From contig JAFRFV010000138.1 in NCBI GenBank assembly GCA_017434185.1, forward strand, positions 1 to 56,400: a stretch of DNA of 56,400 nucleotides, given 5' to 3'. Of the stretch, positions 6,045 to 54,519 are shown one piece after another; the stretch's first letter is position 1, and every line of letters starts with the position of its first letter. The translations under genes and the position numbers were made by a program. The notes under the pieces are model-generated. The model had not been told where the DNA came from. It saw nothing but the letters and a program-made list of their open reading frames with translations, and did not search any database. This DNA comes from Coriobacteriales bacterium. Its GTDB lineage: Bacteria > Actinomycetota > Coriobacteriia > Coriobacteriales > RUG844.

Positions 6045-6164
6045 TGGTCACGATTCACGCTCGTGGGGTTGTGGGATGGTCATTCTTGCGCCTCGTGGGG
6101 TTGTGCAACCCCATATCCTCGATTTCTGACCACGCTACAACCCCACGTGGTACGAAAATGACCA
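6045..6164. repeat. Four-unit palindromic element (32-nt period, 2 direct + 2 inverted)
   Basis: The intergenic stretch 5895-6216 holds no gene, only this element. TGGTCA occurs at 6045 and 6077, and its complement TGACCA at 6127 and 6159, so both arms have a 32-nt period. Each unit also carries a TGGGGTTG core (CGTGGGGTTGT in three of the four units), and the centre is the palindrome GGGGTTGTGCAACCCC (6097-6112). No transposase or integrase is adjacent. The same two-plus-two design recurs at 12484, 48708 and 54265 with different unit sequences. Confidence 0.85.
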
Positions 6165-11490: not shown

Positions 11491-12633
11491 ATGCAGGTCA
11501 TCATCTCACACGAAAGCGCGATCGAGTTCTGGCTCACCTGGGGTGACATCTACCCCGGTGTGCCCTGCAGCGTCCCAAGGGGATATCGCCTGCAGCTGAG
11601 CGCCGCGGAGATTCCCGGCCTTGCTCTCACGATGCCGCTGCATGTGCTGATCGCGGGGCAGGAACAACGGCGTAGCGACCCGCTGCGTTGCCACATACTC
11701 GAGAAACTGCCGCCCAAGAGCCTGCGTCAAGTGGGCAACGGCATCTACGTCGTGTGCCCCGAGCTCGCATTCATGCAGCTCGCGGCGGCGAGCGCGCGTG
11801 ACGAGCGCGAGCTCATCGTGCGGGGCACGCAGTTGTGCAGCCAGTATTCGCTCGATTCAACGAAAGAGAATGGGCTGCGGCCACACGCTCCGCACAGCAG
11901 CACGAAGGCGATCGCGGATTTCGCGGCGGCGAACCCAGGACTGCGAGGCGCACATCGCGCGTTCCAGCTGGGCAAACGACTTCTGGATGGCAGTCGCTCG
12001 CCCATGGAGGGCAAGCTCGGACTCACGATGGGGCTCCCGCACCGCCTGGGCGGCTACAGCGAAGCCGACTTCGAGATGAATGGAATCGTGCAGCTGTCCA
12101 ACAAGGGCGAAGCGATGCTGCGACGCCCAAGCTGTGAGTGTGACCTGATCTGGCGGAAGCTGGGCATCGTGCTCGAATATGACAGCGACCAGCACCATTC
12201 GCGGCAACCGGACCTGAAGCGTGACACTCGCCGCCGTGAAGCGCTGCGCGTGTCCGGGCTCGACGTGACCGTGGTCACTGGCGACCTCTTCAACTCGTAC
12301 ACGTGGATGGACGAGCTCGCGCGGCGCATCATGAAGGCGCGCACGGGCCGCTTCCGTGCGTGGCCGGACGACTTCCGCTTGCGGCAGAGTGCACTGCGAC
12401 GCGCGCTGCTCGCGTTCGACAGCCAGCGACCCGCGGAGCTGCCCAGGAAGACGCGCGGCAAGAGGGTCGTGCCCGCGGGCGACTTGACGCAAAATATCGA
12501 GATTAGTGGTTCGATGCTGGAAGCGGCGAGGGGTTTGACGCAAAAAGTCGAGATTAGTGGTTCGCCTTCCGACCAATCGACCGTCGTCTACTACGCTCTC
12601 GAGTTCAAACCAGACGAGGATCCCTTGGGATAA
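11491..12633 (+). CDS. DUF559-like (PD-(D/E)XK/Vsr-fold) putative nuclease with repeat-derived C-terminus
   Basis: The protein is 380 aa. Residues 1-200 are uncharacterised (SHESAIEFW near the start, PELAFMQLAAAS, RSPMEGKLGLTMGLPHRLGGY). Residues about 215-300 carry a DUF559-type nuclease pattern: CECDLIWRKLGIVLEYDSDQHH, then DTRRREALRVSGLDVTVVT. The acidic Asp and Glu-Tyr-Asp with downstream Asp-x-x-Arg are the features expected of Vsr/EndoMS-like restriction folds. The last 50 residues encode two copies of LTQ(N/K)(I/V)EISGS, which come from two palindromic-repeat units reading through the gene. The stop codon itself lies in GGGATAAGCCC. The SD is weak. A paralogue occurs at 54578-55567. 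Function is inferred only. Confidence 0.75.
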   Translation: MQVIISHESAIEFWLTWGDIYPGVPCSVPRGYRLQLSAAEIPGLALTMPLHVLIAGQEQRRSDPLRCHILEKLPPKSLRQVGNGIYVVCPELAFMQLAAASARDERELIVRGTQLCSQYSLDSTKENGLRPHAPHSSTKAIADFAAANPGLRGAHRAFQLGKRLLDGSRSPMEGKLGLTMGLPHRLGGYSEADFEMNGIVQLSNKGEAMLRRPSCECDLIWRKLGIVLEYDSDQHHSRQPDLKRDTRRREALRVSGLDVTVVTGDLFNSYTWMDELARRIMKARTGRFRAWPDDFRLRQSALRRALLAFDSQRPAELPRKTRGKRVVPAGDLTQNIEISGSMLEAARGLTQKVEISGSPSDQSTVVYYALEFKPDEDPLG

Positions 12634-12733
12634 GCCCGGATTGACGGGCTTATCAACCACTAATCGCCACTTTTTGCGTCAAAAGAAGGCTTCGCTGGCG
12701 GCGCTAACCACTAATCGCCACTTTTCGTGTCAA
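12484..12733. repeat. Four-unit palindromic element (51-nt period) overlapping the nuclease gene
   Basis: Two direct units (TTGACGCAAAA at 12484 and 12535, each continuing to GATTAGTGGTT) face two inverted units (starting at 12655 and 12706, ending in TGCGTCAA or CGTGTCAA). The period is 51 nt in both arms. The direct units are in frame in the DUF559-like gene and encode its last residues, while the inverted units are in the gap before the lipoprotein gene. The inverted units read GCCAC where direct ones read GTCGAG-type sequence, so the arms have drifted. The same unit recurs at 34647-34835. Confidence 0.9.
12629..12654 (+). terminator. Hairpin of inverted GATAAGCCCG copies at the nuclease gene stop
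   Basis: There is a perfect 10-bp stem (GATAAGCCCG, 6-nt loop, CGGGCTTATC). It contains the TAA stop of the upstream gene, and no U-tract follows. It is a variant of the GATAAGCGC motif arranged as an inverted pair, like 16171-16202. A terminator role is inferred. Confidence 0.55.
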
Positions 12734-18469: not shown

Positions 18470-18528
18470 TCGTTCATACACTTCGACTTTTGGCAGAGGT
18501 GCTGCCAAAAGTCGAAGTGTATGAACGA
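18470..18528. repeat. Perfect 27-bp inverted repeat with 5-nt loop
   Basis: The arms 18470-18496 and 18502-18528 are perfectly complementary. The right arm begins CTGCCAAAAGTCGAAGTG, and the loop is AGGTG. It lies in the leader of the LysR gene, 31 bases before its start codon, and would form a very stable RNA hairpin. The unit core (TGCCAAAAGTCGA) resembles those at 54265 (TGCCAAAAAGTGGA) and 12535 (GCAAAAAGTCGA), so I place it in the same element class as a one-plus-one form. Confidence 0.9.
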
Positions 18529-34646: not shown

Positions 34647-34835
34647 TTGACGCAAAAAGTCGAGATTAGTGGTTGGCGCGAGATTCCAGTGTATTTTTTG
34701 ACGCAAAAAGTCGAGATTAGTGGTTGGGATTGAGCCCACGTCGGGCATGAATGACCACATATCTTGCGATTCTCATGCATGTGATAAGCGCTTATCCACT
34801 GGGTGAACCACTAATCTCGATTTTTTGCGTCAAAA
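34647..34835. repeat. Three-unit palindromic element (51-nt period), same unit as 12484-12733
   Basis: The 443 bases between the iron box and the helicase gene hold no gene. TTGACGCAAAAAGTCGAG occurs at 34647 and 34698 (period 51), each running on to GATTAGTGGTT, and an inverted copy lies at 34806-34835. A fourth unit expected near 34857 is absent or decayed. No nuclease gene is at this copy. Confidence 0.9.
34783..34796. repeat. Full palindrome GATAAGCGCTTATC
   Basis: Two copies of the iterated 9-mer overlap head to head at their GCGC ends and give a perfect 14-bp palindrome. It shows that the motif can exist as a symmetric site. It lies between the direct and inverted units of the surrounding element. 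Confidence 0.8.
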
Positions 34836-48707: not shown

Positions 48708-48829
48708 GTGGAAAGGGGACGTGTTTCATTCCACGAACGTGTGATTGGGGACATGTTTCAAACTGAGGGAGTGCGCTAAGACCTGTCCCCAATCACACAA
48801 ATGTGGAAGGAAACACGTCCCCTTTCCAC
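48708..48829. repeat. Four-unit palindromic element (32-nt period, 2 direct + 2 inverted)
   Basis: Direct units carry GGGGAC at 48715 and 48747, and inverted units carry GTCCCC at 48785 and 48817, so both arms have a period of 32. The outer units are GTGGAAAGGGGACGTGTTTC (48708) with the inverse ending at 48829. The inner units have GTGTGATTGGGGACA at 48739 and its inverse starting at 48785. The element lies between the GntR promoter and the stop of the DUF1893 gene, so it fills the gap and would form a terminator-like hairpin. Confidence 0.92.
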
Positions 48830-54052: not shown

Positions 54053-54264
54053 GACTCCTTGTTGCGGACGGAAAGGCGCGGGGGCATACGGGTGCACGAG
54101 CGTTGGGGCGCGTGCATTGGGATGCGAGCGTGCGTTGGGGCGAGGGCGCCGGAAAGCGCACTTGCACATGATACGCCTTCGCGCTTCTTCGCGCAGCCTT
54201 CCTTCTTGCTCAGCGCCTTTCTTTGGAAGATTCTCGACCACAGGAGAATGGATTGTCGCGACTT

Positions 54265-54519
54265 TGCCAAAAAGTGGACCATAAGAGAACGGATTGTAGC
54301 GGCTCTGCCAAAAAGTTGACCATAAGAGAATGAAATCTTGCCCGCAAGCGCTCCGGATCCCTGTATTTTTACTATTCTGGTAAAGTGTTTACAGCAACAC
54401 GGGCATTTGGCCCACCTTCGGGCGCGAAAACGTCCGAGAATTCGATCGATTCATTCTCTTATGGTCCACTTTTTGGCAGCACTGCGTCATCCTGTTCTCT
54501 TATGATGGGTTTTCTGCCA
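54265..54519. repeat. Four-unit palindromic element (41-nt period) before the second nuclease gene
   Basis: The 525 bases from 54053 to 54577 hold no other gene. Direct units TGCCAAAAAGT(G/T)GACC start at 54265 and 54306, each running to AGAGAA. Inverted units start TTCTCTTATG at 54454 and 54495. The period is 41 in both arms. A partial third direct unit (GACCACAGGAGAATGG) lies just before, at 54235. The element ends 58 bases before the start of the DUF559-like gene. Confidence 0.92.

Follow-up and report, generated by a model that had tools for sequence, protein, structure and literature searches.

Whether a nuclease gene that is physically joined to palindromic repeat units also recognises, processes or mobilises those units, as RAYT transposases do with REPs, is the question raised by a locus in a 56,400-nucleotide stretch of Coriobacteriales DNA (contig JAFRFV010000138.1, positions 1 to 56,400 of the forward strand; hereafter the window). 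The gene, P0001, encodes a DUF559/Vsr-like (EDxHD-type) nuclease of 380 aa on the plus strand (11491-12633), in which a conserved family region (about 11491-12429) is followed by a C-terminal extension whose reading frame runs on into the element. Four units make up this element: unit 1 (TTGACGCAAAATATCGAGATTAGTGGTT; 12484-12511, +) and unit 2 (TTGACGCAAAAAGTCGAGATTAGTGGTT; 12535-12562, +; 51 nt from unit 1) lie in frame in P0001 and translate as DLTQNIEISGS and GLTQKVEISGS, and the inverted units 3 (12655-12682, -) and 4 (12706-12733, -; 51 nt from unit 3) follow its stop codon. As single-stranded DNA the element folds with z = -7.7, and 0 of 200 shuffles were equally stable. Because family conservation in P0001 stops near 12429, the in-frame units belong to a read-through extension and not to the enzyme proper; the element lies about 55 bp past the conserved domain, the usual place of the downstream elements of other members. 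The earlier note on this DNA had described repeat units inside the 3' end of the gene, which holds for P0001 (two in frame, two inverted after the stop) as a peculiarity of this gene and not as a rule.

The second DUF559/Vsr-like nuclease gene of the window, P0002 (54578-55567, +; 329 aa), begins 58 bases downstream of an element (54221-54519; folding z = -6.9), whose units lie at 54265-54289 (+), 54306-54330 (+), 54454-54478 (-) and 54495-54519 (-, degenerate) with 41-nt spacing, and which includes an additional degenerate direct copy at 54221-54261. Both window genes thus adjoin a symmetric element with two direct and two inverted 25-28-nt units; P0001 and P0002 are the only homologues in the window, and the earlier count of two out of two such genes touching an element stands. 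The window's own genome contains 14 homologues, most with a symmetric element beside them. One P0001-type orphan element, with no nuclease gene, was found in this genome at 34647-34833 of the window (units 34647-34674, +; 34698-34725, +; 34806-34833, -); it has 0-1 mismatches to the P0001 unit and lies upstream of an SNF2-family gene. A search of the same genome for orphan copies of the P0002 element found none. An orphan element of another homologue of this genome (gene at G000:C242, locus L007) lies at 6045-6164, with four units (6045-6070, +; 6077-6102, +; 6106-6133, -; 6137-6164, -) at a spacing of about 32.

Three further observations concern repeats in the same genome. At L014 (G000:C168) a broken homologue has a stop after MIISH, and the repeats beside it have become a direct duplication with 94-nt spacing; gene and element are likely a pair in decay. 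A perfect 27-nt inverted repeat (CTGCCAAAAGTCGAAGTGTATGAACGA; 5-nt loop) at 18470-18528 of the window, between divergent genes for an AMP-binding enzyme and a LysR-type regulator, may be a site for a regulator or a relative of the elements with one pair only. A separate class of repeats, long hairpins with GGGGAC/GGGACGG cores (e.g., GAGACAAAGGGACGGGG), occurs at 48708-48829 and in several Coriobacteriales genomes (also L069, L073, L078 and L093), unlinked to DUF559 genes here.

The catalytic set expected for Vsr/DUF559 (EDxHD-like PD-(D/E)XK) nucleases is E...D...E-x-[DN]...H...D..R. This pattern is present in an alignment of 61 homologues, in which S184, E187, D232, E243 and H249 (P0002 numbering) are invariant and D258 and R261 nearly invariant (at least 90%); the P0001 counterparts of the family-conserved residues are E173, D218, E229, H236, D245 and R248. 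Searched singly against Pfam, P0001 and P0002 gave no significant family match, so the DUF559/Vsr assignment rests on the family: at E ≤ 0.1, MTES_1575 REase was matched by 42 of the 61 members (best 9e-6) and DUF559 by 32 of 61 (best 1.5e-6). The Vsr/DUF559-type residues previously noticed in the gene are upheld by these family-level profiles and conserved residues. Among solved structures the family profile comes closest to the homing endonuclease I-Bth0305I (3r3p, E = 0.007), and profile comparison yielded no HUH domain or Y1_Tnp match for the family, which matches Vsr/DUF559-type nucleases instead. An AlphaFold2 model of P0002 (pLDDT 93.4, pTM 0.92) had DUF559/Vsr proteins among its best matches to viral proteins and weak matches to PDB folds. 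Support for a nuclease assignment therefore comes from the family profile, from the catalytic residues and from the DUF559 matches among viral proteins.

PADLOC returned weak matches, mainly to methyl-directed restriction enzymes, and weak AbiEi matches in two members. In the AbiE type IV toxin-antitoxin system the AbiEi antitoxin binds inverted repeats, and the N-terminal region of the family may resemble the AbiEi middle domain, which we take as no more than a lead; unlike AbiE, the nuclease domain is fused here and the repeats are dispersed through the genome. A phage or plasmid origin was rejected: phage and PHROG searches gave no match, and the plasmid collection gave a single Collinsella record. 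The nuclease genes at L090 and L094 were missed when genes were called with a model of codon usage trained on these genomes, which suggests atypical codon use and possibly a horizontal origin.

Of 201 genomes sampled from the order, 167 contain members of the family, often in multiple copies. The genus of the window is represented by one sampled genome and its taxonomic family by three, and of those three the nuclease gene occurs only in the window's genome. A long inverted repeat lies within 400 bp of 87 of 126 unique homologues, compared with 16 of 400 random windows; 87/126 is a lower bound, as the repeats at L007 and L013 escaped the automated count and were found by a separate repeat search. 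In 20-kb regions centred on homologues, a long-loop inverted repeat was present within 400 bp of 30 of 40 homologues vs 24 of 255 unrelated genes. Most homologues therefore have a symmetric repeat nearby and unrelated genes mostly do not, and the adjacency that the earlier note had reported for two genes is confirmed as real and general. Forty of the gene-adjacent elements are upstream, often ending about 15-20 bp before the start codon, and 47 are downstream. Most genes have an element on one side, and a subset has elements on both sides (L043, L061, L067, L072, L078, L086, L090, L094, L190, L207 and L214), in some cases with the same arms.

The arms of these elements are 18-50 nt long with about 80-100% complementarity, and the loops are mostly 60-120 nt. 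In the general plan, two (sometimes three) units of ~25-30 nt face inverted copies, and the outer ends of the main arms are about 120-165 bp apart. Extra units, present in 35 of 138 halves vs 8-12 in shuffles, sit 19-21, 31, 40-41 or 50-51 bp from the arms, a phasing that fits a period of 10.4-10.5 bp (Rayleigh R 0.62, p about 3e-5). Helical phasing of this kind points to a protein that binds duplex DNA along a single face; a Collinsella element folds as a near-complete 162-nt hairpin (z = -13), so single-strand recognition is also possible.

Units also occur far from the nuclease genes. The unit TGCAANTTTTTCGACYTTGTGGCA of genus g34 has 17, 29 and 13 matches in three species, in each of which the gene lies beside a unit; the copies are nearly all inverted pairs 126-139 bp apart, with conserved boxes and diverged spacers. 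No match to TGCAANTTTTTCGACYTTGTGGCA was found in G051 (same genus), G111 or G067, and reversed-pattern controls gave 0. In Collinsella, 23 of 45 genomes contain the unit CCACGAAANNGGCCCATCTACTACG (unit A), typically in two inverted copies 133 bp apart; it was present in 15 of 16 genomes with the orthologue vs 8 of 29 without it, a contrast confounded by clade; G205 has the orthologue and lacks unit A, and its own allele has unit C. Copy number is about 1-15 elements per genome and is low in the window's own genome. The dispersed copies scored for context are between convergent genes in 38 cases, between tandem genes in 19, and between divergent genes or inside genes in none (genes were called with a codon model, and some orthologous sites are counted more than once), compared with 34 divergent gaps among 124 background intergenic gaps of g34. 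Extragenic dispersed inverted doublets are thus a feature of both g34 and Collinsella.

In Collinsella (L215-L264) many dispersed elements are bordered by another repeat, CAAAATGATCCGTTTTCCTC(CGTCCCC), suggesting nested or composite repeats. In g34 (L141, L143, L148, L151 and L087), several copies are found where membrane-protein genes of a related set, resembling LuxR-type regulators, have their 3' ends.

Orthologous sites with conserved flanking genes were found both filled and empty. Four g34 sites are filled in G095 and empty in at least one relative. One Collinsella site is filled in G192 and G078 (and in G206 by flank spacing) and continuous in at least 15 other species; a second, beside selC, contains the element in G183 and G114 and lacks it in the five species compared with them, the distance from the stop codon to GTTTGGTAAAATACC being about 190 bp in G114 vs 12 bp in the empty sites; two further Collinsella sites are likewise filled or empty between species. 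At several sites, including that of G192, the whole intergenic stretch differs and not the element alone, and no clear target-site duplication was seen in the filled/empty alignments, in which the flanks are too diverged.

These placements bear on a regulatory explanation, under which the nuclease-like protein would be a DNA-binding regulator of its own promoter and the dispersed copies a small regulon. The close approach of upstream elements to the start codon is in its favour, and the helical phasing of the units would suit a looping regulator. Yet 47 of the 87 gene-adjacent elements are downstream, and promoter-like scores were no clearer in upstream than in downstream elements; the dispersed copies lie 3' of genes (none of the 57 scored separates a divergent pair, against the 34 of 124 control gaps) and are missing at orthologous sites, and the catalytic residues are conserved. 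Copy placement and absence at orthologous sites disfavour an operator or regulon, which we regard as unlikely.

Each nuclease gene has a unit of its own. The 87 arms fall into 69 distinct families, and arm likeness tracks protein identity (Mantel r 0.50; 0 of 999 permutations), with similar arms in 0 pairs below 60% protein identity and in 96% of pairs at 85% or more. This covariation is partly due to linked descent, and for adjacent genes and elements part of it could reflect the exchange of a linked cassette. A sharper test comes from one Collinsella locus (named strains, L341-L352), at which alleles A, B and C of the nuclease, about 65-71% alike, are followed by units A, B and C at 56-60 bp after the gene; allele and unit agree in 3 of 3 cases for A, 3 of 3 for B and 5 of 6 for C (at L350 the unit is found only at +1218). 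The downstream neighbour genes are 95-98% identical, and one upstream ORF is 61-91% identical. Compared between alleles, identity is 84-100% over residues 1-50 and 80-96% over the catalytic core (276-325), and 36-60% in most blocks of residues 51-225; from this pattern we infer that the central region (51-225) probably reads the unit. On sequence grounds, recognition of a cognate unit by each nuclease is well supported, because the unit covaries with the nuclease. The link between gene and repeat accordingly extends beyond the adjacency first noticed, to a gene-specific covarying unit, dispersed extragenic inverted pairs and presence or absence at orthologous sites.

The allelic series is equally relevant to a second explanation, in which the nuclease cleaves foreign DNA or rival alleles that lack the cassette, in a host-useful or selfish, homing-like manner, gene and element are swapped together as a cassette, and copies arise by recombination. 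The homing endonuclease as closest solved relative by profile is consistent with such a system, as is the mosaic, allele-specific central region beside conserved downstream neighbours at one locus. In G160, two paralogous copies (L146 and L148) have the left flank and interior in common but diverge in their right flanks, past the other arm, and look like a product of recombination between copies. The family further resembles EDxHD (Vsr-like) homing endonucleases such as I-Bth0305I and the DUF559 / MTES_1575 REase proteins in nuclease domain, catalytic residues and allele-specific mosaic divergence. Unlike EDxHD homing endonucleases, the genes here are free-standing and not within an intron or intein, the proteins have an extra N-terminal region of about 180 residues, and target-like units lie both next to the gene and within dispersed elements, at unrelated intergenic positions where homing would not put them. 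Many copies, moreover, are at unlinked sites without flanking homology, copies occupy sites that are empty in relatives, and the PADLOC matches to restriction enzymes are weak. We regard a cleavage system with cassette exchange as an improbable account of the repeats.

Our preferred reading is that each DUF559/Vsr-type nuclease gene is paired with a private DNA element. The protein would recognise the units of its own element, either as double-stranded sites or as an extruded hairpin, and would nick or cut at the units, leading to excision of the element or its copying to new extragenic places in trans, while the gene would stay beside one or two parent copies. We infer mobilisation by the nuclease as the simplest link between a conserved nuclease, cognate inverted pairs at unlinked sites and the presence or absence of copies. 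To the reading as a whole, a REPIN/RAYT-like system built on an unrelated Vsr-like nuclease, with binding, cutting and nuclease-caused spread as its presumed steps, we assign a probability of roughly 0.58. Of the activities proposed in the earlier note, the evidence fits recognition strongly, and mobilisation, as by RAYTs with REPs, plausibly.

RAYTs are single-gene enzymes with paralogue-specific repeats that occur as extragenic doublets; they coevolve with these repeats and evolve faster than their neighbours (PMC2817692, PMC3116915). The present system is similar in several respects: a single gene encodes the enzyme and lies beside palindromic units, inverted doublets are scattered through intergenic DNA, a genome has several paralogues that each have a private unit, and the enzyme outpaces its neighbours and coevolves with its unit, the last two features being seen in the arm families and at the Collinsella locus. 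These parallels would concern how the system works. The enzyme itself differs, being a Vsr/DUF559-type nuclease here and an HUH Y1 tyrosine transposase of the IS200/IS605 superfamily in REPIN/RAYT; no constant GTAG (GT(A/G)G) head is present, none being common by eye to the arms of the 69 distinct families; the ~25-30-nt units form phased direct and inverted sets over 150-250 bp; elements number about 1-15 per genome, REPs usually having >100 copies; and the genes are not always flanked on both sides. With neither the HUH enzyme nor the GTAG head, and with a low copy number, the system falls outside REPIN/RAYT. The elements also resemble MITEs with a parental insertion sequence, as short inverted-repeat elements that are non-autonomous and presumably mobilised in trans by the parental enzyme, and differ from them in the lack of a DDE transposase, in that no target-site duplication was found, and in their multi-unit internal structure.

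The REPIN-like architecture (inverted doublet, extragenic, hairpin-forming; PMC3116915) could alternatively mean that an HUH (RAYT-type) or other transposase encoded elsewhere moves the elements and that the DUF559 genes are bystanders; as adjacency is mostly to the DUF559 gene, the unit is specific to each paralogue and allele, and the arms have no constant GTAG head, we consider this highly unlikely. Chance or low-complexity hairpins such as terminators, although the centre of one Collinsella element does resemble a bidirectional terminator, are rejected by the controls (87/126 vs 4-9%; reversed patterns 0), the length, complementarity and long loops of the arms and the dispersal of near-identical units.

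In the open-licence literature, we found nothing linking DUF559 proteins to such palindromic repeats or to mobility, and no description of such repeats in Collinsella. We tentatively propose, at somewhat below even odds, a new class of prokaryotic mobile element, in which Vsr/DUF559-type nucleases, in place of HUH or DDE transposases, would each mobilise a private palindromic miniature element. Such a system would extend over most of an order of gut Actinomycetota, often with many fast-diversifying copies in a genome, and a swappable central region that coevolves with the unit would set its specificity. If true, this would give a concrete function to DUF559-type nucleases, a large family of unknown role, and would mean that REP-like genome repeats have arisen twice, the second time in company with an unrelated enzyme. 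The coupled alleles of enzyme and unit would form a natural protein-DNA specificity series, useful for understanding how Vsr-like nucleases read long sites. Most sampled Coriobacteriales genomes, such as those of Collinsella, have several such genes, so the elements would add to genome plasticity and probably contribute to assembly breaks.
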